Notes under the pieces: model-generated
The model's database searches: none
What the model saw: only the letters and a program-made list of their open reading frames with translations
What the model was told of the DNA's origin: nothing
Assembly: GCA_024516035.1 (NCBI GenBank)
Contig: CM044966.1
Coordinates: 22,913,185 to 22,977,184 of the forward strand
Direction of reading: 5' to 3'
From: Bactericera cockerelli
Lineage: Eukaryota > Arthropoda > Insecta > Hemiptera > Triozidae
Length of the DNA: 64,000 nucleotides
Position numbers and translations under genes: made by a program
Shown here: positions 546 through 52,590 of the stretch, piece after piece
How the letters are laid out: every line of letters starts with the position of its first letter
Numbering within the stretch: the stretch's first letter is position 1

Positions 546-785
546 CTGGCGCGCTGAGAGGAGGCAAAGCGCAGCACGGGGGCGCGACTCATCCCGTCCG
601 CCACCACCCGGGAGGTGACCCGTTCACACTCACGGCCCGACACCCCCGCCTGGTGCTCGCCACCAGACACCCCTCCGTGGTTGCCATGGGAACGAACACG
701 GTCTGGTCGTCCAGGAGGAGGGGCCCGGCCACGCCCACAGGGGGGGGAGGTAGCCAATCACGTTCTCGCAGCACTGGCCCAGCAC
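546..785 (-). CDS. HMGCR: HMGCR exon 11 with two frame breaks
   Basis: The acceptor is a run of 20 C then ag|gtgctg, and the donor is gccag|gtaaat. Three reading frames are needed to read the conserved protein: [11 protein letters not shown], then [20 protein letters not shown] through [16 protein letters not shown], then [18 protein letters not shown]. The first break falls in the 8-G run at 740-747 (9 expected) and the second near the CCC at 619-621 (one G short on the coding strand). Both are one-base deficits in G/C runs, as expected from long-read consensus errors. A real lesion would destroy the enzyme. Confidence 0.92.
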
Positions 786-2859: not shown

Positions 2860-2892
<33 letters not shown>

Positions 2893-5800: not shown

Positions 5801-8800
5801 AATTAATACACAAAATTGGAAACAATACACAAGAAAAAAAAACAGAAAAAAATTGAGAAAAAAAAATGAATGTCTTAACTCAAGGGCGGGGTTATTGTCT
5901 TTGGCAATATCTTCCACACAACCCTGCATTAGGTAACATATGGAGAATAATATCAGAGCAAGGTCCGTTCACACTCACCTCATAAGACCCTTGAATCGTC
6001 TCATTCACTATCATGGAGAATAATATCAGAGCAAGGTCCGTTCACACTCACCTCATAAGACCTTGAATCGTCTCATTCACTATCATGGAGAATAATATCC
6101 GAGCAAGGTCCGTTCACACTCACCTCATAAGACCCTTGAATCGTCTCATTCACTATCATGGAGAATAATATCAGAGCAAGGTCCGTTCACACTCACCTCA
6201 TAAGACCCTTGAATCGTCTCATTCACTATCATGGAGAATAATATCAGAGCAAGGTCCGTTCACACTCACCTCATAAGACCCTTGAATCGTCTCATTCACT
6301 ATCATGGAGAATAATATCAGAGCAAGGTCCATTCACACTTACCTCATAAGACCTTGAATCGTCTCATTCACTATCATGGAGAATAATATCAGAGCTAGGT
6401 CCATTCACACTTACCTCATAAGACCTTGAATCGTCTCATTCACTATCATGGAGAATAATATCAGAGCAAGGTCCATTCACACTTACCTCATAAGACCTTG
6501 AATCGTCTCATCTCATTCACTATCATGGAGAATAATATCAGAGCAAGGTCCGTTCACACTCACCTCATAAGACCTTGAATCGTCTCATTCACAATCATGG
6601 AGAATAATATCAGAGCAAGGTCCGTTCACACTCACCTCATAAGACCTTGAATCGTCTCATTCACTATCATGGAGAATAATATCAGAGCAAGGTCCGTTCA
6701 CACTCACCTCATAAGACCCTTGAATCGTCTCATTCACTATCATGGAGAATAATATCAGAGCAAGGTCCATTCACACTCACCTCATAAGACCCTTGAATCG
6801 TCTCATTCACTATCATGGAGAATAATATCAGAGCAAGGTCCGTTCACACTCACCTCATAAGACCCTTGAATCGTCTCATTCACTATCATGGAGAATAATA
6901 TCAGAGCAAGGTCCGTTCACACTCACCTCATAAGACCTTGAATCGCCTCGTCTCCGCTGGTGTTGGCCGTGTCATTCACTATCATGGAGAGGCTGGAGCC
7001 ATCTGTGGCGGACCTTGTTCCTCGCACATCCAGACGGCTGGGGAGCAGGAAGTCAAAACAGAGAACATTACACAAGATGAACATAGTGGCAGAGAATGTG
7101 GTTAACCTCTTTTAGCCCGAAGCTAGAATGTGATTTGTAGTCATAAATATCCACTGTACTCATATATGCACTTGCAGTTAGGCCGAAAATTATTTTTTTC
7201 TTGTGTTAAAAACACATTTGAGAATAAGAAAAACATAGTACAGTGAAAAATATTGGTTGGGTACTCATGACTACAGAAATGTTGTTCACATATGTGCACA
7301 TTCGGTCACAATGATCACAAGTCTATATATTTAGCTGGGCATTCCACACGAAAAGTTTGTGCACATATGTGTACACTGGGCGCGAAGAGGTTAAGTGGCA
7401 GAGAATGCCTAAGGCATTAACTTCGCCCCGGATTACAAGACAATTGCACATTTAAATTTAATTTTTTTTTTATACCTTATTTTGTAAATATTGTTAATTT
7501 TTTTTATTATCTCTGTTAATAATTTATAGTTGTTTGTCTTGTATAAAAAAATAAAGTGTAAATAAATAAAAACACAGCTAAGAGTATTATTTAAAGGTAG
7601 TTGTGCCCCGGAACCGCTTTCGCATTACTTCAGGGAACTTTACCTTTACATCCATGCCATTCCGGAAACGGAAAATTTCGGTCAGAATTTTCCGCTCCGG
7701 CCGGGATTCGAACCTGCAACCTCCGGGTCAGTAACCAATGCTCTTAACCACTGAGCCACGGAGGTCGGCTAAGAGTTAATAATGATCACATAACAGTTAA
7801 AAAATAATAATACAATGTTTCAGCAAAATATAAAAGAGTAGCATACTTCAAAGCAATTTTTTGATGTTTCAAACTTGCCTAGATTTTTAATGTTAAATTT
7901 TAGCGTTGTTAAAAAGCATAAAAATGGGAAATATCATGTCCAATCGTCAGCTTGATTCCTGTACTTGAGACTCTTTTGTGAGGAGATAATATCCAGATTA
8001 CAAGAACTTGGCCTTCATTTGATATCAGTTCCTTTTTAGGCAATTCTATTTACAAAGGATAGTTATTTTCTTGGCGTCTTTTGCACACGAATTGTATTTT
8101 TGGGGGATAATAATAACCTCGTGAATTCAGATCTCCGCACGCGTGCTGCACGCGGCCTAGTCCCACTCCGCCTCGGCGCCTTCGAAGAAATACAGTAAGT
8201 GGTAGTGGTGCAGGAAGTGGAAGATTCGGAACAGCTGGGACCACAGGGTGCCCAAACAGCGGAGAGTCTTGCCCCACATGGCCCGCGCTTTTCTATTTAT
8301 TGAGGTTGATTATGGCCCGCGCTTCCTATTTATTGATGTTGATTATGGCCCGCGCTTCCTAATTATTGAGGTTGATTATTGCCCGCGCTTTCTAGTCGAC
8401 GTTAATTGTTTGTTTGTCTCTTTATTGTATTTTTTATGTAAACATAATGAAGAAATGAGGCTAGAGACTTTACACTGTGAGACAAAAGACCGAATCATAA
8501 AACAGGATTAAAGTTGAGATAAGTCAGACTGTCCCTCAACTCGGGCTAGCACTGTAATTGGTTGAAACTCCGACTTTAGGGCGTGTCTGGCTTATCTCAA
8601 CTTCAGTCCTGTTTCATGATTTGGCCTTAAAGTAATTGTTTCTTTATTTCTGCTTTTACTCGATAATATGTTTTTAGACTTAACTTTTAAAACAAACAGC
8701 AGATTTAAAATCATTAAAACAGTAATTCACTTTTTATTTGTTGAGATGGGATGCACTTAACAAAAAAATATCTTGACATTTTTTTGAACCTCTGAATTAG

Positions 8801-11800
8801 TCTCTACAATTTAAAACACTATAATTATTTTTTTTAATTGTTTTGTTGATGATCAAATTACCAAAAAAAGATTTCATTAAAAACTCATGTTGATGAAAAG
8901 AACCAAGTGTTGGGAGACGCGCGGGGGATATTTCAGGCAAAGGCTTAGTTTCGCTGTTTAAAGAGGTAATGTGTATTTTAAGGAAGTGTTTTTTTTTTCT
9001 TCTTTCAACTTGTGTCCTTAAAAAATGTCTAATTTTGAAGAGTTTTTTTTTAAAAGTCAAGTTGAAAAATTGTAAACTGACAGCTTGGTTCTACAAGTCC
9101 AACTGTCAAAATGGCAATGTTTGAAGTGTTTTTTCTTTAGTGTTGTTTGTGTGTTTGTTTTTTAAACAAATGCCCGAATTGTCTAGTACATAAATATATG
9201 TTATTGCCATACACACGACTAAATAAAACCTTTTATATCTAAAATATGAATTCTAATTTATACTGGGGGTATGAATTCTAATTTGATATCAGTAGCTTGA
9301 ACTCAGTACCTTGATCTCAGTAGCTTGATGGATAAGGCGGCGGACTTGTGACCTGGAGTTCGGTGGTTCAAGTCTCAAGTTCAGCGTAGATTTAATAAAG
9401 CGAGTTTTAGTAGTTGTGATATCACGAAAGTGATTAACACAAATATGATAACTTATATGTATCTGTGTATCTCTCTTGCTTTTATCCCATATTGGCTTAT
9501 GTTGCTATTGGGGTCGGCATTAAATATGATAACTTACAGAAAACATTTCTCGTGAAATACAATGGAACATTGTTCCGTAAATTTATTATAATAAATAAAT
9601 ACTAAAAGTTCTGATTATCTTCCTGATTTTATCCTGGAACAGACAAACAAACTAAAGCCAAATCGTCCAGTAGGTACCCAAGTTAAAACAGAACCTCACT
9701 TAGTGAAGTCACTTAGCTCCCTCACTGTGTTCGGTTAATAATAATAATAATGTGATTTTCTTTTGTCTGTTCAAAACAAACAGTCTGAAATAATAATGAA
9801 TGAACAAACTCAAAGACACTATAAGCCCTTGTATGGAAATGGAATATTCTATCAAGCCTTGCTTGAACTATGTGTGTGCTTGTTTGTATGGCTCTATTAA
9901 GTCTACACTATACACCTATACAGGGTTGCTCATCTACACTATACACCTATACTATACCGGGTCTCTCATTTCAAACGAGGCAGCGCGATAACTCGGAAAA
10001 TATTAATTATACAGAAAACATCTGGTTGCATTGGAATTTCACTTGGTTCCGGGATTCTGGGGACCCTTCTTCAATATTATTAATTATTAGCCTTCTTGTA
10101 TAAATTTGATGAAAATATAAAGTTTAGCACCCATCCAACACGATGATGCTACCCAATGATGATGATTTAAATTTCTAAAATTGACCTCATCTAAGCTAAA
10201 AGCTTGAAAAAAAAAAAAAAAAAAAATTGAGGCCACCATCAGTTTTCCCATAGTTTAAACAATTCAATTCAATCGATTGTGTGATTTTAAAATAAAAAAA
10301 AATGAAATCGGAGCAAAAAAATATTTTTTTGTACAAAAACGAACACAATACTTCCGATTTCTAATATTAGAAATTTCTCGGAAGTAAAATTAAACACAAT
10401 TTACAATTAAACGGAAATTTGGTCAGAATATTTTTTCTGTAGAATCAACACTTTTCAAGTAATCACTCTGTTTCGTTTAAATGAGACACACTGTACATGT
10501 GTACATATACGCATAGAGTTTCTGTGTGTTTGTTAGCGTGGCTTTGCTGAGTATACTTTACACATTAGGTAGAGTTCCTCACTTTTATCACGAGGCATTG
10601 ACGAGTATGAATATAGTCACCGTGGCCGAGTGAGTTAGCGCGCTAGGCTCGCACGCACGGTGATCTTGGTTCGATCCTTAGCGGGGCAGCATTTTTTTCT
10701 GCTCCGTACTTGGGTGTTCGGGGTCCACTCATACCTCGTGAGGAAAAATGAGTAGCTGCCTAAATGTTAGCAGAGACCAGTGGCGGAATTATAGGCAAAA
10801 ATAAGATATTGGGATATTAAAAGATACCGAAAAGTCCTATAATTCTGCGCTATCCACTAAAATTGTGATATAATAACACAAAGAAATACATTATTATTAT
10901 GAATATTTTTCCAAATGATCTGAGATTAGAAAATATAAGGACCGTATCATTATTTTTTTCCAAATAATACATGTACAATCATGAGAACCGCAGACATGAT
11001 GACCTTCACATGTTGTACCAACGAGTTATCTACACCTCCACAAATTCTACCAAATATGTACACCTTCACGTCCTTCACGAATTCAAACCAATATGTACAC
11101 CTTCACGAATTCTACCCAATATATTCTACACCTTCACGAACCGTACACAATATCTACACCTTCACGATTTCTACCCAATATGTACAGTGTACACCTTCAC
11201 GAATTCTACCCGATATCTACTACTAGACAGTCGGCAGCTTACCTGAGCACATGCACAATCATGAGACCCGCAGACATGATGACCTTCACGTGTTGTACCA
11301 CCGGGTTCGGTTTCTTGCCTTCTTCTTTCAGTGCCTTCACGAATTCTGCCGACTTGAAGTACCACACGGGTCTCTCCGTGTCCTGCTCTGATCTGGAGAG
11401 CTGAGGAGATGCGGACATTCAGAAATCAATAAATTAATAAATGGCCGTATTTTTCTTTCTAACCAAAGTGGATTCAAATGGAATAAATTGAACGAACTGG
11501 AATAAAGTCATTTTTCATTTGGAAGAGGAAAAATCTTCTTCCAGTTTGGTTAACCAAAATGGATTTATCTTTAAAAGTACCGAAACACATTTTTCTTTCA
11601 CGAATAGTGGGGAAGCTAAACTGGAAATATTTGGAACAAAATGGAAATATATGGAAATTCCGAACCTGGAATTTTTTTTTTTTTTTTTATCAAAACCTAG
11701 TAGTAAAGGTTTCCCCCTTGATATAATAGTACACATGTTTTAGCTTTTCTCAAAATTTAAATCAGTTCTCTAGATATTTCGAGTGGCTCTTTTTTTTTGG

Positions 11801-14800
11801 CGGACCCTGTATATACATATAGTAACAAGTTCCAAGCTATTCTACTCACCTCTAGTATGAGGGATAGGCAGGCCGGGTAGAAGGACATGAACACAATATA
11901 GTTGACCAGCACAGACATGATGGCGTAGTCATTTCTATATATATATAGTAACAAGTTCCAAGCTATTCTACTCACCTCTAGTATGAGGGACAGGCAGGCC
12001 GGGTAGAAGGACATGAACACAATATAGTTGACCAGCACAGACATGATGGCGTAGTAATTTCTATATATATAGTAACAAGTTCCAAGCTATTCTACTCACC
12101 TCTAGTATGAGGGACAGGCAGGCCGGGTAGAAGGACATGAACACAATATAGTTGACCAGCACAGACATGATGGCGTAGTCATTTCTATATATATATAGTA
12201 ACAAGTTCCAAGCTATTCTACTCACCTCTAGTATGAGGGATAAGCAGGCCGGGTAGAAGGACATGAACACAATATAGTTGACCAGCACAGACATGATGGC
12301 GTAGTAATTTCTATATATATATAGTAACAAGTTCCAAGCTATTCTACTCACCTCTAGTATGAGGGACAAGCAGGCCGGGTAGAAGGACATGAACACAATA
12401 TAGTTGACCAGCACAGACATGATGGCATAGTAGCAGAGCATTTCTATGCGACGAACTCCTGGAATGAGAAGAAGAAGTTTAAAATAAATACAGAATTTTA
12501 ATAATGTAGCCAGGTGTAGCCAGCTTGGTTACACCTGGAGGGGGGGGGGGGGGGGGGGGAGCGATGGAGCTGCAGCACCCCCAGACGAAAAGGAAAAGAG
12601 TTTTCTTTTCATGTCCGCCGACAAATATTTGTAGTCAAAATTTGGTTACAGTTGTTTGTAAGGGATACCTTCCGGTGCGCTCATGTTGACCCAGCACCTA
12701 AATGGGAAGTATTGTGTCACTTCTCGCCCATCAGAGGGGAGGCATACTATGGGATGGGCAGGCCACAACACAGACCACAAGCGTCTACAGTAGCTCCCGT
12801 TTCATGGCTACGAAATAAAATGAGGCTGTGAAACACTCATTTTTAATAAATAAAAAAATATATAATAGTTATCATATTTGTGTTAATCACTTTCGTGATA
12901 TCACAACTACTCAAACTCGCTTTACTAAATCTACGCTGAAACCGGGACTTGAACCACCGACCTCCAGGTTACGAGTCCGCTGCCTTATCGATCAAGCTAC
13001 TGAGGTCGGTATAAAAAAAAAAAAAAAGGGTGTAGAAATCGTCTTGAAGGTGTAGAAATCGTCTCCTAAAATAAAAAAATATATATGTTGTATTATTACA
13101 TTGTTAATCAAATAATCATCTTGTTGCATGAGTAGGTATAAATAAAAACAAAATAAAGTGATCTGTGACGAGTTTTAAATACGACACATTGCACATTCGG
13201 CATCTGATCTGTTTCCAATTAATTAGATTCTCTGTTTGCAATATCTATGAGGACCATCTCAGAGTTCAGAGAGTGGCTGATGCTTCTGTCACTGACCCCA
13301 ACATACATACAGGGTTAATAGACTTTTCTGTCTGTCCCGGTAGCTCAATGGTAAAGGCGGCACTGTGTGAATTCAGAGATTCCAGAGGTCGCGGGTTCGA
13401 AACCCAACCGGGAGAAGACAAGTTATTCTCCCAGTTGGGATTTTCAATGAATTTAAAATGGAACCATCTACAGAATGTCTCCTAGATGTGTGCAAAATTT
13501 CATGAAAATCCAATGAGCAGTTTCCGAGATTTACGCGTTACAAGGAATCGTTTTAACAGACCGACAGACGGACACAAAACCAAATTTGCTCAGGAGGTTA
13601 TGAAACGTTCAGAAATATGAAAAAAATTGAAATCGGAGCAAAAAAATATTTTTCTTTACAAAAACGAACACAATACTTCCGATTTCTAATATTAGAAATT
13701 TCTCGGAAGTAATAAAATAAAAACTTGTGGAAAAATCTGCCATGTACTCCCTGCTTTCATGACACCCTGTTTGCGTCTATCTCTCACCACCACCACCGGG
13801 CAAGGTATAATTCACTCACATCACTCTCCCGGTACGTCGAAACATCTCATCCGTCTCATCCCAATCAAACAAATCAATCCTCGTTCCATCACCAGCACGT
13901 CCACATCTCTCTCACTTCCGAGTTTTTTTTTATTTTAATTAGTTATTTTTTATTCACAAATCTACCGAAGCATCTAATACCAATAAATCGTTTTTTCCTT
14001 TACATTCCATTTTTTTAAAAGTAATTGTGCTCCGGAACCGATTTCGCATTACTTCAGGGCACTTTACCTTTACATCCATGCCATTCCGGAAACGGAAAAC
14101 TCGGTTAGAATTTTCCGCTCCGGCCAGGATTCGAACCCGCAACCTCCGGGTCAGCAACCAATGCTCTTAACCACTTAGCCACGGAGGTCGGCTCTTTACA
14201 TTTATTTAATCATATTATTTTGTGTTAATCTCTTTCGTGATATTATAAATACTCAAATCTACGCTTGAAACCGGGACTCGAACCACCGACCTCCAGGTTA
14301 CAAGTCCGCCACCTTATCGATCAAGCTACTGAGGTCGGTCTATTACCTGTTACGTATTATTATTGCCTGGTTGGAGTTAATGGAGTTCTACAAGAGATGT
14401 ACCAATTAATTGTCACACCGACTTCTATTTAGATCTATTGTGACCACTTATTGTTTTTGGTCGGTTTTTAATCCGAATTTGAGGTGATAATATTTGCAAA
14501 GTTATGCTATTCGGCCCGAAGCACCAATTTTATTCGGTAGCAAGGAAAAAAGGACACGGAGGACTGTATAAAAGCCGTGGCCTTTGGATAGTTAGCTTGT
14601 TGGTTTTGAGCAATGGACTGATCGGACTATGATGGGGCTTATATTGTTCCGTTCAAGTAGCTTGATCGATAAGGCGGTGGACTTGTGACCCAGAGGTCGG
14701 TGGTTCAGGTTCCGGTGTCAGCGCAGATTTAATGAAGCGAATATTCACGAAATAAATAATTAAAATGGTTTAATAAAAAAATAATTTCATGTAGATTCAG

Positions 14801-17800
14801 GACTTGAGTAGGTTTTAATAGATGCTTAGGAAATTTATTGTATTTACTTAGCTTGTGTAACTTGGCTTTTTGCTATAAACATTATCGGTGTTCTATTTTA
14901 CGCCAACAACCAACAAAACAATATGAAATTGTGAACCAACTATCAGAATCTAGTTGATCGTGGAGAAATCTAGTTAAGCATAGAAAAATCTAGCAGAACC
15001 TCGAGTATGCATCACCTATGGAGGCTCCACCTAGTCCTAGTCCTATTTCTTGTGTGGGATACAGAAGAAGCAGAAGCAGGGAGGAGTACATTGGATGTGG
15101 CTACACCTGGACATGGTAAGGATTCTTTTAATGAAAATTTAATGAAATGAAAATAGGTTGAGAAAGATCATTACTATCCATGAAGATCAAAGTGGCTTTG
15201 TCTCTGGGAAATCGACAATGGATGAAATACAGACAGTAAGGATAATAGTGGAAAAGTATAGAGATGCCAAAAAAGACCTTCACATGGTATTTATAGACTT
15301 AGAAAATGCCTTTGATAGGGTACCTAGAACACTCATCTATGAATCACTTTGATCACACGATGTACCTGAAGAATATGTAAGATTGATTATGGATATGTAT
15401 TCAAACACAACTAAGCAAATAAGATGCACTGCTGGCATTACATCAAAATTCAATATTAAAGTGGGTGTCCATCAAGGAAATGTGCAAACTCCATTACTCT
15501 TTTACTCTTTATTATGATAGTTAACCACCTAACACACCAAAAAATGGATGGCCTTTTAAAAATACTCTTGTTTTGCCGATGACATTGCAATGATTGCGGA
15601 CAACAAAAAATTGCTGGAAAATAAATTGGAAGAATGGAAAAAATCCTTGAAGATAATGGTTTAAAAATAAGCAGAACTAAAACTGAATACCTTCACCTAC
15701 CATTTGATAATGACACTGTTGACCAAATACAACCCACTATAAAATTACAAGGAGTGCATATACCAACATGTGAGACTTTCAAATACCTTGGATCAGTCAT
15801 TAGCAAAGATGGAACGTGCAAAGCAGATGTTGATAGCAGAGTGAAGATTGGATGGTGCAAGTTTAGATCAATGACAGGAGTTTTATGCGATAAGAAAATA
15901 CCAATGAAGTTGAAGGGAAAAATTTATAAGACTATTGTGAGACCAGCATTATTATATGGAACGGAAGCATGGCCAATGTATGAAACTTATAATAAGAAAA
16001 TGGAAACTAAAGAGGTGAAAATGTTAAGAATGTCAGCAGGAGTGTCACTAATGGATCGAATTCAAAGTAAATATATTAGAGGTAGTATGGGTGTCACAAT
16101 TATATCACAATGGCACAGGGATCCGTTGGTTCGAATTCCACCCAGTGCCTGAATATTTAATCATTAATTTGAATTTGTGACCACATAATAAAAATACTCT
16201 GTGGGTTAGGTGGTAGAAACTAGACAACTAGGAGTCTCAGCAAGTCAAACTGGTCACAATAGATCTAATAGAGGTCGGTGTGAGAATTGGGGCTCTTCAG
16301 GGACCCCAACCAGTTTATAACAATAATAGGAGGTAGAAAAACTTTGAGCATTCACCTCGCCTGGTAGTTACCTTCCACTAAAGAGTGTTATTTTTTTTAT
16401 TAAATACATGACAAGTAAATGGTTCAAATTTATAATTATATAACAATGACTTGTTTACATAATTCATAATATTTTAACTGAACTTATGCTAGTTTCTTTT
16501 GGCTGTCGTCATGCCACACTAAGGGCAACACCTATGAAGTATGGTCCTTGTGTCGTGGGATGCAGCCTTGTTTTAGTTTCTGCATGTGTTAATTATTATT
16601 ACACTATCCTTTACATTTCTATTTCTTTTTAATAAAATAATTATAATTTCCTTTTGTATAGAATAATTATAATTTCCTTTTGTATAAAAGAATTATAATT
16701 TCCTTTGAATAATTTCCTTTTGTATAAAATAATTATATTTTTTTTGTATAATTTCCTTTTGTCTAAAATAATTATATTTTTTTTTTTTGTATAATTTCCT
16801 TTTGTATAAAATAATTATGATTTCCAGACACCCCCGCGGCGCTGGTCAGGGGCAAGCTGCGGCACCTGCTGGAGTGCCGCAAGTACTCTGAGAACGGGCA
16901 GCTGCGGCAACACTGCAGCCTGCGGCAAGAGAAGCTGCGGCACGCGCTGTCCCAGCTATCGACCATAGCGCGCAAGTGGCGCAGCTTTCGGTCCTACCTG
17001 ATCAACCCTGGGACGTGATGGCATGTTTTTTTTATAAAAAAAATTATATACATATATAATTAAATATATTTTTTTTTTGAATTTACATCAAGTTTTGTTA
17101 TTGGGGGCGGGGGCAGTTATTTTCTTACTAACTACTAACTCACCGGACAGAGTGCCCACACTACTAACTACTAACTCACCGGACAGAGTGCCCACACTAC
17201 TAACTACTAACTCACCGGACAGAGTGCCCACACTACTAACTACTAACTCACCGGACAGAGTGCCCACACTACTAACTACTAACTCACCGGACAGAGTGCC
17301 CACACTACTAACTACTAACTCACCGGACAGAGTGCCCACACTACTAACTACTAACTCACCGGACAGAGTGCCCACACTACTAACTACTAACTCACCGGAC
17401 AGAGTGCCCACACTACTAACTACTAACTCACCGGACAGAGTGCCCACACTGATGACCAGAGCCTCGACTAGGGTGTCCAGAGTGATGGTACACTACTAAC
17501 TACTAACTACTAACTACTAACTCACCGGACAGAGTGCCCACACTGATGACCAGAGCCTCGACTAGGGTGTCCAGAGTGATGGTACACTACTAACTACTAA
17601 CTACTAACTACTAACTCACCGGACAGAGTGCCCACACTGATGACCAGAGCCTCGACTAGGGTGTCCAGAGTGATGGTACACTACTAACTACTAACTCACC
17701 GGACAGAGTGCCCACACACTACTAACTACTAACTCACCGGACAGAGTGCCCACACTACTAACTACTAACTCACCGGACAGAGTCCCCACACTACTAACTA

Positions 17801-20800
17801 CTAACTCACCGGACAGAGTGCCCACACTACTAACTACTAACTCACCGGACAGAGTGCCCACACTGATGACCAGAGCCTCGACTAGGGTGTCCAGAGTGAT
17901 GGTACACTACTAACTACTAACTCACCGGACAGAGTGCCCACACTACTAACTACTAACTCACCGGACAGTGTGCCCACACTACTAACTACTAACTCACCGG
18001 ACAGAGTGCCCACACTACTAACTACTAACTCACCGGACAGAGTGCCCACACTGATGACCAGAGCCTCGACTAGGGTGTCCAGAGTGATGGTACACTACTA
18101 ACTACTAACTCACCGGACAGAGTGCCCACACTACTAACTACTAACTCACCGGACAGAGTGCCCACACTACTAACTACTAACTCACCGGACAGAGTGCCCA
18201 CACTGATGACCAGAGCCTCTACTAGGGTGTCCAGAGTGATGGTACACTACTAACTACTAACTCACCGGACAGAGTGCCCACACTACTAACTACTAACTCA
18301 CCGGACAGAGTGCCCACACTACTAACTACTAACTCACCGGACAGAGTGCCCACACTGATGACCAGAGCCTCTACTAGGGTGTCCAGAGTGATGGTACACT
18401 ACTAACTACTAACTCACCGGACAGAGTGCCCACACTACTAACTACTAACTCACCGGACAGAGTGCCCACACTACTAACTACTAACTCACCGGACAGAGTG
18501 CCCACACTGATGACCAGAGCCTCGACTAGGGTGTCCAGAGTGATGGTACACTACTAACTACTAACTACTAACTCACCGGACAGAGTGCCCACACTACTAA
18601 CTACTAACTCACCGGACAGAGTGCCCACACTGATGACCAGAGCCTCTACTAGGGTGTCCAGAGTGATGGTACACTACTAACTACTAACTACTAGGGTGTC
18701 CAGAGTGATGGTACACTACTAACTACTAACTACTAACTCACCGGACAGAGTGCCCACGCTGATGACCAGAGCCTCTACTAGGGTGTCCAGAGTGATGGTA
18801 CACTACTAACTACTAACTACTAGGGTGTCCAGAGTGATGGTACACTACTAACTACTAACTCACCGGACAGTGTGCCCACACTACTAACTACTAACTCACC
18901 GGACAGAGTGCCCACACTACTAACTACTAACTCACCGGACAGAGTGCCCACACTGATGACCAGAGCCTCGACTAGGGTGTCCAGAGTGATGGTACACTAC
19001 TAACTACTAACTCACCGGACAGAGTGCCACACTACTAACTACTAACTCACCGGACAGAGTGCCACACTACTAACTACTAACTCACCGGACAGAGTGCCCA
19101 CACTACTAACACAACTCACGGACAGAGTGCCACACTACTAACTACTAACTCACCGGACAGAGTGCCCACACTACTAACTACTAACTCACCGGACAGAGTG
19201 CCCACACTGATGACCAGAGCCTCTACTAGGGTGTCCAGAGTGATGGTACACTACTAACTACTAACTCACCGGACAGGTGCCACACTACTATACAACTCAC
19301 GGACGATGCCACACTACTAACTACTAACTCACCGGACAGAGTGCCCACACTACTATACGGACAGAGTGACACCTAACTACTAACTCACGCGGTGCCACAC
19401 TAATAACTCACGGCAGTGCACACTACTACTACTAACTACGACAGAGTGCCCAACTATATACTAACTCACGGAGGTGCCAAGTGATGGACCATACTAACTA
19501 CTAACTCACGGACTGTGCCACACTACTAACTACTAACTCACCGGACAGAGTGCCCACATACTAACTACTAACTCACCGGACAGAGTGCCCACACTAACCA
19601 CACCGACAGGTGCCAATTAACTACTACTAACTAACTATAACTCACCGGACAGAGTGCCCACACTACTAACTACTAACTCACCGGACAGAGTGCCCACACT
19701 ACTAATACTAACTCACCGGACAGAGTGCCACACTACTAACTACTAACTCACCGGACAGAGGTGCCCACACTACTAACTACTAACTCACCGGGACAGAGTG
19801 CCCACACTACTAACTCTATAACTCCGGACAGAGTGCCCACACTGATGACCAGAGCCTCTACTAGGGTGTCCAGAGTGATGGTACACTACTAACCTAACTA
19901 ACTCACCGGACAGAGTGCCCACACTACTAACTACTAACTCACCGACAGAGTGCCCACACTACTAACTACTAACTCACCGGACAGAGTGCCCAACATAACT
20001 ACTAACTCACCGGACAGAGTGCCCACACTACTAACTACTAACTCACCGGACAGAGTGCCCACACTACTAACTACAACTCACCGGACAGAGTGCCCACACT
20101 ACAACTAAACTCACCGGACAGAGTGCCCACACTACTAACTACTAACTCACCGGACAGAGTGCCACACTACTAACTGACTAACCACCGACAGAGTCCCACT
20201 ACTAGTGTAACTCACCGGACAGATGCCCACACTACTAACTACTAACTCACCGGACAGAGTGCCACACTACATAACTACTAACTCACCGGACAGAGTGCCC
20301 ACACTACTAACTACTAACTCACCAGGACAGAGTGCCCACACTACTAACTACTAACTCACCGGACAGAGTGCCCACACACTAACTACTAACTCACCGGACA
20401 GAGTGCCCACACTACTAACTCACCAAGAGTGCCACACTACTAATACTATCACGGACAGAGTGCCAACACTACTAACTACTAACTCACCGGACAGAGTGCC
20501 CACACTACTAACTACTAACTCACCGGACAGAGTGCCCACACTACTAACTACTAACTCACCGGACAGAGTGCCCACACTACTAACTACTAACTCACCGGAC
20601 AGAGTGCCCACACTGATCACCAGAGCCTCGACTAGGGTGTCCAGAGTGATGGTGGGCCCGAGCAGAGCCATGCCGCGGGCTATGTTGCCCTTCACCTCCG
20701 CGGGGGAGGGGGAGGAGAGGGCGCACTGGGCGAGCAGCGTCGCCTTGGAGAGGTCTATGAGGAGCAGGAAGAAGAAGAGGGCGTCGTCCCTGGGGGGGGG

Positions 20801-23800
20801 GGGGGGGGGAGAGAGAAAAATTCATTAAAATACAGTCGAACCTGGAATATAAGAGAATCCTGTAAGAATATAAGAGAAGACTCGGTATAGGAGAACAAGT
20901 GGTTAACGCGCTACTCTTATAATACAGATAGCGTAGGAATCTCCCTCAAATGCATTAATTTTTCCTCATTAATTTGAGTTTGAGACCACATAGGTAATAA
21001 TAATCCGGGGCGAAGTTAATGCCTTAGTTAATGCCCATTCTCTGCCACTTAACATAATAATAAAACTCCGAGGCTTAGGTGGTAGAAAATGCTTTGAGCA
21101 TTAACCTCGCCTGGCGGCCTGTTGTTATTCTTATAATTAGAATGGAACCTTAAGTGGAAGGTTACTACTGGGTGAGTTAAATGCGATGATAAGGGTTGGG
21201 TGGAAGAGTTCGCCATAGACAATAACCCCGCCCTATAGTTAGGACATCTAAAAGTCAGATCATTTGGCGAAAAATGTCGTCAAACGATACATAGTCTTAC
21301 TTGAGATCGGACAGGTCGCCTCTCAGGAAGTTTATGACGGTGGAGCTGAACACAAAGCTGGAACACACGGTGAACAGGCCCGCGATACCTGGGGAGAACA
21401 TGATATTAATAAATAAATAAATATTGAGAAACCCTCCCAAAGTTAAATTTCCCACCATCAAGAACCAGGCCAGCTGGCAACACTGCATTTTTAAAGGCGC
21501 CCAGAAAATTGCTTCTGGGCGTCCACAGGGGTTAATACGCTATCAATCCTTCCACCACCATGACAACCATCATGGACACGGAAAGTAAGTAAGTAGCAAG
21601 TGTCAACACCAAAACCTCTCCTCACCTCGTGGAGATTTCCTAGAAATAATTTAGTAAGTACCTTTCCAATTTTCTCTCCCCATCTTGCAATGTCAATGCT
21701 ACTCACAAAAATTGTGACATAAGAACACAAATAACTAACATGTTATCTTTTAAACAATAAAAAAAACACTTAATAATTAACAATAAATAACGTGCATTGG
21801 TAGTCAAATGATTGAAGCGCTAGTCTGGTAATCCAAGTCGCTTAGGGATCCGTTGGTTCGAATCCGAGCCAATGCATAAATTTTTCCTGATTTATTTGAG
21901 AATTTAATCACATAATAATAAGACTCTGAGGGTCAGGTGGTAGAAAAGGGTTGGAGCATTAACCTTGCCTGGTTACCTTCTACTACAGAATTTTATTATT
22001 ATATTATTATAATAACACTCTTTAGTGGAAGTTAACCACCAGGCGAGGTTAAATCTCAAAGCATTTTTTACCACCTAACCCTCAGAGTCTTATAATTATG
22101 GGCTTACAAACTCAAAATAATGAGGAAAATTTCATGCACTGGGTGGGATTCGAACCAACGGACCCCTACGCGACCTGGATCACCAGACCAGACGCTTTAA
22201 CCACTTGACTATCAGTGCACGTTTTTATAAAGCACTCACCCATGATATACTTGGAGCCGAGACGATGAAGATTACGGAACTGATAGAATGTGTAGAGGAC
22301 TGCCGCACATCTGATGATAGTCATCACCACCATGTCAGCTGGTATGTATTCCTGAGAATAGAATAGAATAGAATAGAACATCTGATGATAGTCATCACCA
22401 CCATGTCAGCTGGGATGTATTCCTGAGAATAGAATAGAATAGAATAGAACATCTGATGATAGTCATCACCACCATGTCAACTGGTATGTATTCCTGAGAA
22501 TAGAATAGAATAGAATAGAACATCTGATGATAGTCATCACCACCATGTCAGCTGGTATGTATTCCTGAGAATAGAATAGTATAGAATAGAACATCTGATG
22601 ATAGTCATCACCACCATGTCAGCTGGTATGTATTCCTGAGAATAGAATAGAATAGAATAGAACATCTGATGATAGTCATCACCACCATGTCAGCTGGTAT
22701 GTATTCCTGAGAATAGAATAGAATAGAATAGAACATCTGATGATAGTCATCACCACCATGTCAGCTGGGATGTATTCCTGAGAATAGAATAGAATAGAAT
22801 AGAACATCTGATGATAGTCATCACCACCATGTCAACTGGTATGTATTCCTGAGAATAGAATAGAATAGAATAGAACATCTGATGATAGTCATCACCACCA
22901 TGTCAGCTGGTATGTATTCCTGAGAATAGAATAGTATAGAATAGAACATCTGATGATAGTCATCACCACCATGTGAGCTGGTATGTATTCCTGAGAATAG
23001 AATAGAAGAGAATAGAACATCTGATGATAGTCATCACCACCATGTCAGCTGGTATGTATTCCTGAGAATAGAATAGAAGAGAATAGAATAGAATAGAACA
23101 TCTGATGATAGTCATCACCACCATGTCAGCTGGTATGTATTCCTGAGAATAGAATAGAATAGAACATCTGATGATAGTCATCACCACCATGTCAGCTGGT
23201 ATGTATTCCTGAGAATAGAATAGAATAGAACATCTGATGATAGTCATCACCACCATGTCAGCTGGTATGTATTCCTGAGAATAGAATAGAAGAGAATAGA
23301 ATAGAATAGAACATCTGATGATAGTCATCACCACCATGTCAGCTGGTATGTATTCCTGAGAATAGAATAGAATAGAATAGAACATCTGATGATAGTCATC
23401 ACCACCATGTCAGCTGGTATGTATTCCTGAGAATAGAATAGAATAGAATAGAACATCTGGTGATAGTCATCACCACCATGTCATTTGGTATGTATTCCTG
23501 AGAATAGAATAGAGTAGAGAAGATAATAAAGAATAGAATAGAAGGACAAATGACAGAATATGATTTGTCCAGATGACAATGAATCCTAGGCTTTCTATAC
23601 CTAATAGGTAATTCATTCATTCATAGGTTGCATCTTCGTACCCGAAGGTTGCATTAGTCAATATTCAATATGGCACTTCTCCATTATTCTCTCTGCTCCG
23701 CCAATCTCTTGCATTCTCCATATGTTCTGAGGCGATAGAAAGCAATAAACAAATATATAAAGGGGCAAGGACTCTGAATGTTACAGACCTCTCTTTAAAT

Positions 23801-24305
23801 AAATATTCATTAAAAAAAAAAACAAAAAAATAATAATAATAATATCGTCTTATTTATACTGCCCGATTAGGACTATTAAAGTCCTATTATTCCAGCAGTA
23901 AGCCCAAGACATATTATTATGTGGTAAAAATCCCAAATGGGAGGATAAATTGTCACGTCCCGGCTGGGTTTCGAACCCACGACCTCTGGAATCTCTGGAT
24001 TCACAGAGTGCCGCCTTTACCACTGAGCTACCGGGACAGACTAAAATAAAAATAATAACTAAAATTTTCGACAGTGGAGGAGCGTGTTTCTGGAACCGGG
24101 GGGGCCCCCGGTCTGGTCTCACCTGTTGCACGATGCAGTGGCGACTCCACGAGTGCCCGGCGGCGCAGCGGTCCCCGCCCCCCTCCCCTCCTCCCCCCCT
24201 GTCCACGCACAGGAGACAGGAGGTGAGACAGGCCACGCCCACAATCACCTCCCACGGGTGCGAGGCGCACAGCTCGCCGTGGCGCCGGAACAGACGCACC
24301 AGCAT
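546..24305 (-). CDS. HMGCR: HMG-CoA reductase, N-terminal 573 codons in 11 exons (3' end outside window)
   Basis: 3-hydroxy-3-methylglutaryl-CoA reductase reduces HMG-CoA to mevalonate with NADPH at the ER membrane. In insects this supplies isoprenoids such as juvenile hormone precursors rather than sterols. Exons (minus strand, in order): 24308-24123, 22351-22240, 21388-21301, 20789-20596, 12458-12352, 11400-11243, 7037-6927, 5609-5470, 3784-3584, 1963-1779, 785-546. All introns are GT-AG and the phases join without conflict, giving 1719 coding bases. The protein follows the vertebrate enzyme almost collinearly: start [20 protein letters not shown], sterol-sensing segments ([40 protein letters not shown]), a variable serine-rich linker, then [10 protein letters not shown] and the catalytic start CCENVIGY containing the conserved catalytic glutamate. 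The remaining catalytic Lys, Asp and His lie past the left edge. Exon 11 has two one-base frame breaks. The start is the first ATG after the exon 1 acceptor and matches the family N-terminus. Confidence 0.95.
1085..1280 (-). mobile_element. SINE family B
   Basis: Minus-strand tRNA-like head with gtagctcagtggtaaagg and B box, followed by the family body (gggaggataacttgtcat, taagccctagacacattatt). Confidence 0.8.
1604..1699. mobile_element. hAT-type MITE with 8-base target duplication
   Basis: Inverted ends CAGTGGCGTAGCTAG and ctagttacgccactg, flanked by direct repeats CATACCTG at 1596-1603 and 1700-1707. Eight-base duplications and CAG...CTG ends are typical of hAT elements. Confidence 0.8.
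1779..1963 (-). CDS. HMGCR: HMGCR exon 10 (start of catalytic domain)
   Basis: The acceptor is ccccag|gcatga and the donor is accaag|gtgagt. It encodes [20 protein letters not shown] then [11 protein letters not shown] and [10 protein letters not shown], matching the N-domain of the catalytic part. It joins exon 11 in phase 0. Confidence 0.94.
2574..2683 (-). mobile_element. SINE family D
   Basis: Contains cgtgatgtcacaactactca and the minus-strand tRNA-like head with the B box mutated. It lies in the HMGCR intron between exons 9 and 10. Confidence 0.7.
3319..3546. repeat. Long inverted repeat near HMGCR exon 9 donor
   Basis: Left arm agacactaataaataaaaaa ... ctgtgtctcatatctttt and right arm aaaagatatggagacacag ... 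tttattattagtgtct pair over roughly 110 bases around an AT-rich centre. It could form a hairpin in the pre-mRNA. Confidence 0.8.
3584..3784 (-). CDS. HMGCR: HMGCR exon 9 (linker)
   Basis: The acceptor is ttccag|gaaccg and the donor is tggagg|gtgagt. It encodes a low-complexity linker ([35 protein letters not shown]) between the membrane and catalytic domains. The linker is fast-evolving in the family, so the call rests on phases and position. A long inverted repeat starts about 40 bases after the donor. Confidence 0.85.
4140..4400 (+). mobile_element. Dispersed repeat with ttgttgttgctcccccgtcc
   Basis: Shares a 60-base block (cagcttggctacagctggag, then gagtgatggtctccagccaa) with 33960-34035 (minus) and partly with 12505-12570. 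No coding capacity. Confidence 0.5.
4480..4690. repeat. Imperfect direct repeats
   Basis: Two copies of a segment with gtgtcatgcgcacaat (about 80 bases) preceded by repeated atcgatatt/cgatatt words. Intronic. Confidence 0.6.
4755..5062 (-). mobile_element. SINE family F, interrupted
   Basis: The tail part (ggttttaccctccattcgct) and head part (gttagaaaattctgcaccac, ctctggactacaggcagtag) are separated by about 85 A/T-rich bases (4842-4928) absent from other copies, apparently an insertion. Confidence 0.65.
5470..5609 (-). CDS. HMGCR: HMGCR exon 8 (last membrane segment)
   Basis: The acceptor is ccccccag|atgggt and the donor is ttctga|gtaagc. It encodes [19 protein letters not shown] then [18 protein letters not shown]. 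The IKFIFFEQ motif closes the membrane domain in all animal HMGCRs. Confidence 0.94.
5644..5735 (-). mobile_element. Short repeat with terminal hairpin
   Basis: Holds the conserved aaaacgaacacaatacttcc and the palindrome tttctaatattagaaa bracketed by ttccga/tcagaa-type arms. Other copies are at 10298, 13618, 26571, 32472, 45560 (reversed) and 52948. Confidence 0.65.
5940..6926. repeat. 73-base minisatellite carrying the HMGCR exon 7 donor
   Basis: Fourteen copies of a unit that on the minus strand reads exon 7 fragment (atgatagtgaatgagacg, then attcaagg), end of exon and donor gtgagtgtg, then intron. Compared with the true exon each unit lacks a stretch of about 22 exon bases, so the array began from an internally deleted copy. 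Confidence 0.92.
6927..7037 (-). CDS. HMGCR: HMGCR exon 7 (luminal loop)
   Basis: The acceptor is ccccag|ccgtct and the donor is atgag|gtgagt. It encodes [20 protein letters not shown] then [17 protein letters not shown], a poorly conserved luminal loop with potential N-glycosylation sites (NDT, NTS). Its assignment rests on position and on phase agreement with exons 6 and 8. Confidence 0.85.
7093..7560. mobile_element. Composite of dispersed-repeat pieces
   Basis: The block ggcagagaatgcctaaggca, then cgccccggattacaag, recurs at 21003-21055, 25103-25150 and 48480-48525. The preceding part (7093-7390) is AT-rich with no coding signal. Confidence 0.5.
7595..7772 (-). mobile_element. SINE family C
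   Basis: Minus-strand head ccgtggctcagtggttaag with B box (gggattcgaacctgca on the plus strand) and body with ccggaaacggaaaatttcgg. Confidence 0.8.
8157..8279 (-). CDS. Possible small ORF, 40 residues
   Basis: ATG to TAG on the minus strand in a GC-rich island inside the HMGCR intron between exons 6 and 7. Third codon positions are strongly GC-biased, like the HMGCR exons (ttc, cac, ctg). It would encode [20 protein letters not shown] followed by [14 protein letters not shown] and an acidic end. A four-copy tandem repeat abuts its 5' side, as at the real splice junctions here. It could be the last exon of an undetected gene or a chance open frame. The plus strand also has an exon-like donor (gaaataca|gtaagt), so the strand is not certain. 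Confidence 0.3.
   Translation of the reverse strand: MWGKTLRCLGTLWSQLFRIFHFLHHYHLLYFFEGAEAEWD
8276..8395. repeat. 34-base tandem repeat, four copies
   Basis: Units of the type atggcccgcgctttctattt plus attgaggttgatt. They begin at the edge of the GC-rich island just to the left. Confidence 0.85.
8487..8640. mobile_element. Inverted-repeat MITE
   Basis: Arms of about 40 bases (catgaaacaggactgaagtt type, then gagataagccagac) are about 90 percent complementary. A diverged relative is at 55010-55186 (gacaggattagaataaatcc ... ttatcctgtttcataatgtg). Confidence 0.7.
9311..9450 (+). mobile_element. SINE family D
   Basis: Head gtagcttgatggataaggcg, B box ggttcaagtct, and body ending tatcacgaaagtgattaaca. 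Confidence 0.8.
9460..10297. other. HMGCR: AT-rich intron sequence
   Basis: Part of the HMGCR intron between exons 6 and 7. It holds a short repeated piece (aacctcacttagtgaagtca, also at 46800 and 57310) and words like tatacagggt, but no exon or clear element. Confidence 0.6.
10298..10388 (-). mobile_element. Short repeat with terminal hairpin
   Basis: Same element as at 5644: gaaatcggagcaaaaaaat, then the palindrome tttctaatattagaaa and ctcggaagt. Confidence 0.65.
10616..10890 (+). mobile_element. SINE family E
   Basis: Head caccgtggccgagtgagtta, B box ggttcgatcc, body tgttcggggtccactcatac, and tail aattctgcgctatccact. Confidence 0.8.
10965..11242. repeat. Decayed duplication of HMGCR exon 6 end
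   Basis: At 10976-11030 there is an imperfect copy of the exon 6 end (atgagaaccgcagacatgat). It is followed by six or seven ragged units with ccttcacgaattctaccc, derived from the middle of exon 6, running up to the true donor at 11242. Confidence 0.8.
11243..11400 (-). CDS. HMGCR: HMGCR exon 6
   Basis: The acceptor is cctcag|ctctcc and the donor is ctcag|gtaagc. It encodes [15 protein letters not shown], then [20 protein letters not shown] and LMIVHVL, matching the cytosolic loop and next membrane segment of the family. A decayed partial copy of the exon lies just downstream (10965-11240). Confidence 0.93.
11535..11695 (+). mobile_element. Dispersed repeat, partner at 57395
   Basis: The stretch tttctttcacgaatagtggg, then ggaaatatttggaa, is shared with 57395-57510. 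Family not recognised. Confidence 0.55.
11818..12351. repeat. Tandem array carrying HMGCR exon 5 with its donor
   Basis: Four copies of a 122-128-base unit, each holding the exon 5 segment from [12 protein letters not shown] to LILE, the donor gtgagtag and a (ta)n spacer. The reading frame stays open through several copies. Confidence 0.93.
12352..12458 (-). CDS. HMGCR: HMGCR exon 5
   Basis: The acceptor is attccag|gagttc and the donor is ctagag|gtgagt. It encodes [16 protein letters not shown] and [19 protein letters not shown], a very strongly conserved membrane segment. Most of the exon with its donor is repeated four more times downstream (11818-12351). Confidence 0.95.
12490..12835 (+). 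mobile_element. Dispersed repeat with 20-G run
   Basis: After a run of 20 G (12540-12559), the block tgacccagcacctaaatggg through cgtttcatggctacgaaata recurs in reverse at 27105-27265. Confidence 0.6.
12864..13010 (-). mobile_element. SINE family D
   Basis: Minus-strand copy with aaaccgggacttgaaccacc (B box) and atcgatcaagctactgaggt (A box side). Confidence 0.8.
13328..13713 (+). mobile_element. SINE B head joined to hairpin repeat
   Basis: The family B head (cccggtagctcaatggtaaa) and part of its body end near 13445. An element follows with ggaaccatctacagaatgtc, gaccgacagacggacaca and the terminal hairpin, with the same composition as 32275-32568. Confidence 0.65.
14019..14194 (-). mobile_element. 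SINE family C
   Basis: Minus-strand copy with agcaaccaatgctcttaacc (A box side), B box and body. Confidence 0.8.
14213..14341 (-). mobile_element. SINE family D
   Basis: Minus-strand copy directly next to a family C SINE in the same orientation. Confidence 0.8.
14567..14574 (+). promoter_or_regulatory. TATA box of the nested gene
   Basis: TATAAAAG sits in a non-repetitive stretch 440 bases before the start codon. Transcription would then start near 14595-14600, giving a 5' leader of about 400 bases that includes a family D SINE (14649-14750). Strong TATA boxes are typical of tissue-specific secreted-protein genes. Confidence 0.5.
14649..14750 (+). mobile_element. SINE family D in the nested gene's leader
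   Basis: Head gtagcttgatcgataaggcg and B box-like ggttcaggttcc. It lies between the TATA box and the start codon of the nested gene, so it is transcribed with it or sits in a 5' intron. Confidence 0.75.
15007..15115 (+). CDS. Nested gene exon 1 (signal peptide)
   Basis: Thirty-six codons plus one base, ending ccTGGACATG|gtaagg. I chose the ATG at 15007 because it gives a hydrophobic signal sequence and the correct phase for exon 2. The later ATG at 15018 is in another frame and gives a serine/arginine-rich peptide that would not join in phase. Confidence 0.7.
15007..17018 (+). CDS. Nested gene for a 99-residue secreted protein, two exons, family unknown
   Basis: The gene lies inside the HMGCR intron between exons 4 and 5, on the opposite strand. 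Exon 1 (15007-15115) reads [20 protein letters not shown], an evident signal peptide with hydrophobic core at residues 9-17 and likely cleavage near EEAEA|GRS. Its donor is acatg|gtaagg, leaving one base of a codon. Exon 2 (16828-17018) follows tttccag, starts with the two missing bases (giving Asp37) and stays open to a TGA. The mature part is basic and probably helical, with Cys53 and Cys66 that could form one disulfide, and ends in SYLINPGT. Third positions of exon 2 are GC-rich, like the neighbouring HMGCR exons. The phase match, good splice sites, signal peptide and a TATA box 440 bases upstream together support a real gene. Candidates are a peptide hormone, a cytokine-like factor or a salivary protein. 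I recognise no family. Confidence 0.72.
15155..16117 (+). pseudogene. Decayed RTE-like LINE reverse transcriptase
   Basis: Fragment in the intron of the nested gene. Reverse-transcriptase motifs can be read in several frames: [35 protein letters not shown], then [12 protein letters not shown] and [12 protein letters not shown], ending [13 protein letters not shown]. Internal stops and frame changes show it is dead. The YLGS and LYGTE motifs are typical of the RTE group. It runs directly into a family A SINE lacking its own head. Confidence 0.75.
16118..16389 (+). mobile_element. SINE family A, 5'-truncated
   Basis: Begins at gggatccgttggttcgaatt (B box) and ends ttccactaaagagtgtta. An internal stretch (16225-16320) is unlike other copies. 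Confidence 0.7.
16390..16580 (+). mobile_element. Dispersed repeat, partner at 63546
   Basis: The block tgctagtttcttttggctgt, then ctatgaagtatggtccttgt, is repeated almost exactly at 63625-63715. Confidence 0.6.
16632..16827. repeat. AT-rich tandem array up to the nested-gene acceptor
   Basis: About seven copies of a 25-30-base unit of the type ataattataatttccttttgtata. The last copy merges into the acceptor ataattatgatttccag, so the array appears to have grown from the acceptor region itself. Confidence 0.75.
16828..17018 (+). CDS. Nested gene exon 2 (mature protein, stop)
   Basis: Begins after tttccag with a 2-base partial codon, then 62 codons and TGA. It contains [20 protein letters not shown] and [16 protein letters not shown]. 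The intron (15116-16827) has been filled by an RTE-like fragment, a family A SINE and a tandem array next to the acceptor. Confidence 0.72.
17059..17064 (+). promoter_or_regulatory. Possible polyadenylation signal of the nested gene
   Basis: ATTAAA 41 bases after the stop codon, followed by a T-rich stretch. The surrounding sequence is AT-rich, so chance occurrence is easy. Confidence 0.3.
17130..20595. repeat. 36-base minisatellite carrying the HMGCR exon 4 donor
   Basis: Several dozen copies of a 36-base unit. On the minus strand it is the last 16 bases of exon 4 plus the donor gtgagttag and a tagt-rich spacer. Longer variant units carry 40 more exon bases (around tgatgaccagagcctc). Units are clean at 17130-19010 and 20470-20595 but full of one- and two-base deletions at 19020-20465. 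Confidence 0.93.
20596..20789 (-). CDS. HMGCR: HMGCR exon 4
   Basis: The acceptor is a run of 18 C then ag|ggacg, and the donor is tccg|gtgagt. It encodes [20 protein letters not shown], then [20 protein letters not shown] and SVGTLSG, the core of the sterol-sensing domain. The donor and last 16 exon bases are the unit of the array at 17130-20595. Confidence 0.94.
20830..21250 (+). mobile_element. SINE A remnants and other repeat pieces
   Basis: Family A words (aattaatttgagtttgagac; ttgagcattaacctcgcctg) are broken up by the cggggcgaagttaatgcc repeat and end at the ggcggggt-type piece. This fills the gap between HMGCR exons 3 and 4. Confidence 0.55.
21301..21388 (-). CDS. HMGCR: HMGCR exon 3
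   Basis: The acceptor is ccccag|gtatcg and the donor is ctcaa|gtaaga. It encodes [20 protein letters not shown], a membrane segment of the sterol-sensing domain, and ends in DLSDLK. The phases fit exons 2 and 4. Confidence 0.93.
21430..21790. other. HMGCR: Unassigned intron sequence
   Basis: Between HMGCR exons 2 and 3. Open frames occur on the minus strand, but there is no splice-bounded island or recognisable motif. Confidence 0.5.
21793..22005 (+). mobile_element. SINE family A, plus copy of an inverted pair
   Basis: Head ttggtagtcaaatgattgaa, B box ggttcgaatccg, tail gcattaaccttgcctggtta. It sits tail to tail with the next copy. Confidence 0.8.
22016..22220 (-). mobile_element. SINE family A, minus copy of an inverted pair
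   Basis: Complete copy from ctctttagtggaagtt to the head at 22220, ending only 20 bases from the HMGCR exon 2 donor. Confidence 0.8.
22240..22351 (-). CDS. HMGCR: HMGCR exon 2
   Basis: The acceptor is ttctcag|gaatac and the donor is atcatgg|gtgagt. It encodes [15 protein letters not shown] then [16 protein letters not shown], matching the second membrane segment and the start of the sterol-sensing domain. The acceptor side is repeated about 16 times upstream (22352-23520). Confidence 0.93.
22352..23520. repeat. Tandem array carrying the HMGCR exon 2 acceptor and exon start
   Basis: About 16 copies of a roughly 71-base unit. Read on the minus strand each has a (ttcta)n pyrimidine tract, the acceptor ttctcag, and the first 43 or so bases of exon 2 ([15 protein letters not shown]). 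Small variations include GTATAG for GAATAG and extra pentamers. Confidence 0.93.
23846..24045 (-). mobile_element. SINE family B
   Basis: Full minus-strand copy with gtttcgaacccacgacctct (B box). It lies just downstream of HMGCR exon 1. Confidence 0.82.
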
Positions 24306-24308
24306 CGT
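24123..24308 (-). CDS. HMGCR: HMGCR exon 1 (first coding exon)
   Basis: The acceptor is ttccag|acgATG, so three untranslated bases precede the start codon at 24305-24303. There must be an upstream non-coding exon, which I could not locate. It encodes 61 residues: a short cytosolic N-terminus, the first membrane segment ([16 protein letters not shown]) and a glycine-rich luminal loop with [11 protein letters not shown], ending HCIVQQ|gtgag in phase 0. The intron just upstream is a tandem array that repeats the acceptor. Confidence 0.93.
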
Positions 24309-24837
24309 CTGGAACAGAGGACAAGAAGGGGTTAAGGGTTAAGAGGACTTAGTATTTATTCTTGAGAGGGTATTTATTTCTGGAACAGAGGACAAGAAGG
24401 GGTTAAGAGGACTTAGTATTTATTCTTGAGAGGGTATTTATTTCTGGAACAGAGGACAAGAAGGGGTTAAGGGTTAAGAGGACTTAGTATTTATTCTTGA
24501 GAGGGTATTTATTTCTGGAATAGAGGACAAGAAGGGGTTAAGAGGACTTAGTATTTATTCTTGAGAGGGTATTTATTTCTGGAACAGAGGACAAGAAGGG
24601 GTTAAGGGTTAAGAGGACTTAGTATTTATTCTTGAGAGGGTATTTATTTCTGGAATAGAGGACAAGAAGGGGTTAAGAGGACTTAGTATTTATTCTTGAG
24701 AGGGTATTTATTTTTGGAACAGAGGACAAGAAGGGGTTAAGAGGACTTAGTATTTATTCTTGAGGGGGTATTTATTTCTGGAACAGAGGACAAGAAGGGG
24801 TTAAGAGGACTTAGTATTTATTCTTGAGAGGGTATTT
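24309..24837. repeat. Tandem array carrying the HMGCR exon 1 acceptor
   Basis: About seven further copies of a 63/72-base unit follow the true junction. On the minus strand each has a pyrimidine tract (ccccttcttgtcctctg) and ttccag or ttctag-like ends, i.e. copies of the exon 1 acceptor region. The two unit lengths alternate, differing by a gggttaa insertion. Confidence 0.9.
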
Positions 24838-24957
24838 TTTTTATTTTACACTTTTATTTTTTTTATACAAAACAATCAACATTAAATTATTAACAGTAAT
24901 AATTTTTTTTAACAATATTTACAAAATAAAAAATAGAAAAAAAATATTTAAATTTAA

Positions 24958-52400: not shown

Positions 52401-52590
52401 AGGGTGTTCAGTATTAGTGAGGCAGTGTGTCAACTACATAGATATACAGGGTGTTCAGTATTAGTGAGGCAGTGTGTCAACTACATAGATATACAGGGTG
52501 TTCAGTATTAGTGAGGCAGTGTGCCAACAACATAGATATACAGGGTGTTCAGTATTAGTGAGGCAGTGTGTCAACAACATATATATACAG
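49440..52590. repeat. 46-base minisatellite, about 65 copies
   Basis: Unit of type gtgttcagtattagtgaggc then agtgtgtcaacaacatagat and atacagg. Copies are regular at 51050-52590 but riddled with small deletions at 49440-51000. It lies in no identified gene, and no exon or splice site was recognised in the unit. Confidence 0.93.

Follow-up and report, generated by a model that had tools for sequence, protein, structure and literature searches.

Tandem arrays whose repeat units combine the edge of an exon, its splice site and part of the adjoining intron lie in introns of the HMG-CoA reductase gene (HMGCR) of the psyllid Bactericera cockerelli, and in other genes of the same genome. These arrays are probably products of exon stuttering, in which tandem duplication of a stretch spanning an exon-intron border is followed by expansion and contraction of the copies. 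The observations behind this reading include the composition of the units and the variation in copy number between copies of a gene. The window, meaning the whole stretch of 64,000 nucleotides that was analysed, is located on a 23.6-Mb contig (C12) of a 565-Mb assembly (G000) of 1032 contigs.

HMGCR runs along the minus strand and has 11 coding exons in the window (E1-E11), with GT-AG borders; exons E12-E15 are found in the adjoining 20 kb, and the gene spans more than 40 kb. The joined protein matches PDB 8DJK (E 7.8e-97). The top database protein is P0001 (99% identity, 855 aa, from a 2986-nt contig); the named matches that follow are from Diaphorina citri (81%) and from Cacopsylla melanoneura (77%). 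Because the gene exceeds 40 kb, yet the 2986-nt contig carries the entire reading frame, P0001 derives from RNA. P0001 is collinear with E1-E15 and holds no array content; in at least that transcript, therefore, splicing uses the sites at the true exon edges and removes the array copies. No TRF array lies wholly within any exon from E1 to E15, which upholds the original prediction that clean arrays are missing from the middle of HMGCR exons; by this measure and by the collinearity of P0001, the coding exons are intact. GC content is 0.38 in the window, 0.60 in HMGCR exons and 0.36 in HMGCR introns. The frame of E11 (546-785) is broken, probably by 1-base consensus errors, and no base was restored.

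Table. Positions of HMGCR exons, junction arrays and related features in the window
Feature	Positions	Strand	Description
HMGCR coding exons	546..24308	minus	E1 24308-24123, E2 22351-22240, E3 21388-21301, E4 20789-20596, E5 12458-12352, E6 11400-11243, E7 7037-6927, E8 5609-5470, E9 3784-3584, E10 1963-1779, E11 785-546
E1 acceptor array	24308..24841	minus	unit 64 / 135 bp; AG included, exon 1 nt only
E2 acceptor array	22307..23518	minus	71-bp unit = 45 nt exon + 26 nt intron, 16.9 copies
E4 donor array	17126..20614	minus	36-bp unit = 19 nt exon + 17 nt intron, longer units interspersed
E5 donor array	11810..12432	minus	126-bp unit, 5 copies, 80-81 nt exon
E6-derived intron material	10969..11220	minus	one exon copy (10969-11027) + array (11027-11220)
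E7 donor array	5940..6949	minus	73-bp unit, 13.9 copies
RING-protein exon donor array	61960..62413	plus	starts at donor 61964/61965

Arrays were located with TRF, and the exon and splice-site content of their units was read from alignments (Table). Six HMGCR junctions had been proposed to carry units that contain the exon end with its splice site, and this description fits four of them, namely the E2 acceptor and the E4, E5 and E7 donors, whose units include 19-81 nt of exon. The E4 array comprises about 60 donor copies and has a section rich in indels (about 18994-20580). The E7 unit joins 23 nt of exon adjoining GTGAG to another piece of the exon, the two being separated by a deletion. The remaining two junctions do not fit: the E1 array merely abuts its exon rather than straddling the acceptor, and the donor of E6 is uncopied, the single 59-nt exon copy (91.5%) ending 6 nt before it. 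The E6 intron array, with units of 28-59 bp, resembles by eye an internal stretch of the same exon. From one junction to another the arrays differ in their units. The related claim that intron arrays abut junctions does not hold throughout, as three in the window straddle none (8278-8394, 16621-16823 and the E6-derived array). The 33-bp array at 8278-8394 lies beside a 40-codon ORF (minus strand, about 8277-8157, no Pfam match) and has 22.5 copies in the second copy of the gene. At 16621-17018 an AT-rich array adjoins the possible acceptor of a plus-strand exon within HMGCR intron 4, part of a two-exon ORF that has no Pfam match.

Beyond the window, four extra copies of exon start plus acceptor lie upstream of E12, three extra copies of exon end plus donor lie downstream of it, and the E13 donor bears a 33-bp array of 26.6 copies. 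A second HMGCR copy (copy B) is situated in inverted orientation about 150 kb from the window copy (copy A). Exons E1-E11 of the two match at 92-100%, and among the matches listed the long blocks match at 81-95%. In a scan that took in inexact copies, junction copies in A and B number 17 and 12 at E2, 1 and 9 at E3, 61 and 27 at E4, 5 and 4 at E5, and 14 and 2 at E7; the remaining 17 of the 22 junctions of E1-E11 are single in both. The E3 acceptor array is thus confined to copy B. At E7, copy B contains a single additional unit, with a 64-nt exon piece, whereas copy A has 13 extra copies in which the exon part is shortened. By such copies, 7/29 junctions are affected in A and 8/26 in B, and comparison of the two across E1-E13 showed no intron gained or lost. 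In the E3 array of copy B (locus L011, about 957-995), some 40 nt of the unit (GAGTAACATAAGC...) are absent from both the adjoining exon and the intron end of copy A.

The duplication extends beyond HMGCR: within C12:22.78-23.23 Mb (the window, L009-L014 and L019-L022) HMGCR and two kinase matches are doubled, mirror-wise about a point near 23.00 Mb, and several other kinase and TCP1 matches are paired on one contig. These paired or mirrored loci are probably retained haplotypes, an inverted segmental duplication being the less likely alternative. Copy number varies between HMGCR A and B, as it does between each of two kinase loci and its second copy, all in one assembly and between presumed haplotypes.

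Like structures also occur outside HMGCR, in RING, kinase and TCP1 genes. The RING-protein gene of the window (assigned by Pfam), which we take to be TOPORS, has, at one donor among its seven junctions as judged by eye, three extra copies of a segment that joins the last 18 nt or so of the exon to GTGAG, spaced about 125 bp apart. A kinase sample consisted of 26 short matches out of 132 on contigs C1-C13, chosen by rank and length and for freedom from internal stops before their sequence was seen, with flanks of 1 kb for 20 loci and 500 bp for six; six pairs have 25-mers in common, and the 26 exons may not all be distinct genes. Copies bearing a splice site were found at 8/26 of these exons, at both ends in L053. 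Exact junction-core copies, including the source, number 18 in L041, 15 in L044, two in L048, seven and five in L053, six in L060, and eight each in L057, L061 and L064. The top chance score was 21.8 bits, both for shuffled flanks and for 20 pairings of an exon with another locus. Counted by ends, 9/52 are affected; some of the 52 may not be splice junctions. The limits of the exons came from profile matches, and junctions beyond a match were missed. The copies in L041, L048 and L057 begin about 250-310 bp from the exon, and the tandem arrangement is therefore broken there. Copy number again differs between paired loci: L053 and its second copy L059 have TRF copy numbers of 7.0 and 3.0 at the acceptor and 5.7 and 3.2 at the donor. 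In L058, the second copy of L044, a T-rich transposon-like insert (about 870-1070) splits two junction copies from the remaining array, so that the insertion there came after the duplication.

In the TCP1 gene (L066, seven matched exons) the exon-4 donor is part of a 52-bp array, and a 92-bp array of 2.7 copies takes in the exon-5 donor together with a tRNA-like element; the automatic screen flagged neither array, and both were identified by eye. A 76-bp two-copy array terminates at the exon-6 acceptor. Across HMGCR, the RING gene and the kinases, affected donors outnumber affected acceptors by 13 to 5 (P 0.10). The contigs on which such junction copies lie (C1, C2, C3, C4, C5, C8, C11 and C12) measure 24-65 Mb.

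The excess of arrays at junctions was assessed against a null in which each unit is placed at random in introns with their arrays collapsed, straddling arrays being counted by TRF overlap. In the window, 4/7 HMGCR intron arrays straddle a junction where 0.51 are expected (P 5e-4); the array 5' of E1 is outside this count, which is not an independent test, as the window was chosen for its junction arrays and these were the arrays on which the original prediction was made. Exons E11-E15, which that prediction had not seen, give 2/5 against 0.15 expected (P 0.0065), so the claim that junction arrays exceed chance stands in new sequence, and the entire gene gives 6/12 against 0.61 (P 5e-6). The E12 acceptor copies have no TRF overlap with the exon and fall outside the last two counts. 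Among the kinases, 8/20 TRF arrays are junction-derived where 1.87 are expected (P 8e-5); this curated figure replaces an automatic tally of 11/22, two split arrays having been merged and a 25-bp AT-rich array at L054 no longer counted as exon-derived, its profile match having extended into the intron. All these excesses are upper estimates, because the null takes present intron lengths, which are inflated by insertions; moreover, the arrays are not independent events, most of those in HMGCR being common to A and B.

Other arrays do not derive from junctions, among them the remaining 12/20 kinase arrays and, by TRF overlap, 6/12 HMGCR arrays. Around 15 long-ORF kinase loci, which form about 10 groups by common sequence, one array was found nearby and none at the ORF ends. 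The contrast between affected kinase exon ends and 0/30 long-ORF ends has a Fisher P of 0.023, which becomes 0.05 with 22 ends taken as independent and 0.08 with 30 ends when one further array is counted. This is a 46-bp array at L054 (C12:22774521-22776814) that crosses the putative stop codon of a kinase; at the same locus the 25-bp AT-rich array terminates beside the acceptor of the exon that holds this putative stop.

In the preferred account of exon stuttering, a short stretch (a unit of 20 to about 190 bp) lying across an existing exon-intron border would be duplicated in tandem, and the copies of this unit would subsequently gain and lose number. The first duplication may use a few bases common to exon and intron: by eye, AGT is common to both breakpoints at E4 and TCTCCAT at E7, as would be expected for microhomology-mediated tandem duplication, whereas the E5 breakpoint is ambiguous. 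Growth of the array would follow by slippage or unequal exchange. Such duplications would survive if one intact exon edge stays in place and the extra copy lands in the intron, whereas duplications inside exons would be purged. Besides E5, the broken tandem order in L041, L048 and L057, the L057 unit with only about 4 nt of exon, and the many arrays not derived from junctions speak against this account.

The bias toward junctions may come from a plain mix of duplication and selection, a reading to which we give a slight preference: if introns were short when the arrays were seeded, tolerated duplications would often include a junction. The suggestion that selection tolerates arrays where a splice site is copied thus fits in part. 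Plain tolerance also predicts arrays across stop codons, and the ends of the long-ORF kinase loci have none, but these loci amount to few groups and the L054 array does cross a putative stop. The same two observations bear, in the same directions, on the idea that GC-rich exon edges may be the sole cause. An added bias of the mutation process is a less likely source of the excess, although the process favouring junctions that was originally proposed is possible at that level. Transcribed exon-intron borders, with their R-loops, step in base composition and co-transcriptional splicing, could conceivably provoke local tandem duplication. Junction targeting of this kind would account for the excess over random seeding in HMGCR and the kinases and for the contrast between exon ends and ORF ends; it would also suit the E3 array, gained in B or lost in A, as the intron measures 851 bp in A and a random seed would seldom straddle its junction. 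Against it stand the inflated intron lengths behind the upper estimates, the weakening of the end contrast once the L054 array is counted, and arrays at the putative stop codon, at a tRNA-like element (56630-57026) and in introns off junctions. In a broader tentative version, splice junctions would act genome-wide in psyllids as hot spots for tandem duplication, by way of a DNA lesion linked to transcription or splicing, with a large proportion of introns growing by copying their own borders whatever the GC content or chromosome type.

Selection for additional splice-site copies, for instance to reinforce weak sites, is improbable. GT or AG is kept in 141/142 intronic copies of HMGCR A and B, but the 24-mers compared differ at only 46 of 3408 positions (1/284 in splice dinucleotides, 45/3124 elsewhere). 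This retention is no evidence of selection, because the copies were selected by likeness and differ little anywhere; the 142 copies give no clear signal of selection on the dinucleotides, and in E7 the exon part of copies has been deleted in places. More doubtful still is the birth of introns from a duplicated, AGGT-bearing exon piece (the Rogers model), which the original prediction had raised as perhaps seen here in action. That model centres on the tandem duplication of sequence at splice sites (PMC4974935, PMC2891723), but 13/14 spliced-junction 20-mers have no match in the gene at up to three mismatches and the other has a single match, copies A and B keep the same introns across E1-E13, and P0001 lacks arrays. 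The copies hold exon plus existing intron rather than exon-exon sequence, and it is therefore existing introns that grow. An assembly artefact, with arrays created or inflated from noisy long reads, is likewise very unlikely. Small deletions abound in the indel-rich section of the E4 array and in a 47-mer array, and the frame of E11 is broken, but the same units recur in both HMGCR copies with differing copy numbers, and like structures are present at kinase and other unrelated loci on several contigs, so an artefact was set aside.

Minisatellites, or VNTRs, consist of head-to-tail units, each tens of bp long, that vary in number; the psyllid arrays differ from ordinary ones in that their units cross exon borders above random expectation. 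Exon stuttering, as far as the available part of its description extends, was found in 236 introns of the chicken, 190 of them on dot chromosomes, with the source at most 1 base from the border in more than 90% of cases and an exon part of 20-187 bp (Hron et al. 2026, PMC12954441). Its authors report it from no other vertebrates apart from gerbils, for which the data are unshown, and tie it to GC-rich sequence and, tentatively, to high GC and recombination. As in the chicken, a lateral part of the exon, donor or acceptor included, is present in many copies in the adjoining intron while the coding exon stays intact, units measure tens to hundreds of bp, and, if the psyllid pairs are haplotypes, length varies between genome copies. 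Repetition of exon part plus splice site within an intron is found in HMGCR A and B, the RING gene, the kinases and TCP1, and the source reaches the exon border; inclusion of the splice site was a counting rule here, by which the E6 copy is left out. The association with GC-rich dot chromosomes, which is not part of the definition, is absent from the psyllid, whose arrays are on large contigs and, in the window, in sequence of 38% GC. In anatomy the psyllid arrays correspond to exon stuttering; the setting differs. Rogers-model intron gain in Drosophila (PMC2891723) and potato (PMC4974935), in the portions of those reports available, likewise involves tandem duplication at splice-site sequence, the potato duplicate spanning an intron-exon boundary; in the psyllid, by contrast, no new intron is formed and existing introns enlarge.

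Among the papers searched for prior reports, a single one uses the term 'exon stuttering', and a further search of them found none. Stuttering has been described mainly on avian dot chromosomes; here it occurs in an insect and on large contigs. Its presence at 38% GC in the window and at 9/52 sampled kinase exon ends loosens the tie to high GC and recombination. The psyllid arrays offer a system in which to study how splice sites are duplicated, how introns grow and how a splice site is chosen among dozens of near-identical ones, and they serve as a warning that phantom exons may be present in the gene models of such genomes.

Two further arrays lie elsewhere in the window. The 38-bp array at 56630-57026 resembles, by eye, the head of a tRNA-like element found elsewhere in the window (e.g., at about 47078), and would be a stuttering of non-genic sequence. 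The 47-bp array at 49441-52593, outside the genes recognised in the window, has about 69 copies and many small deletions.
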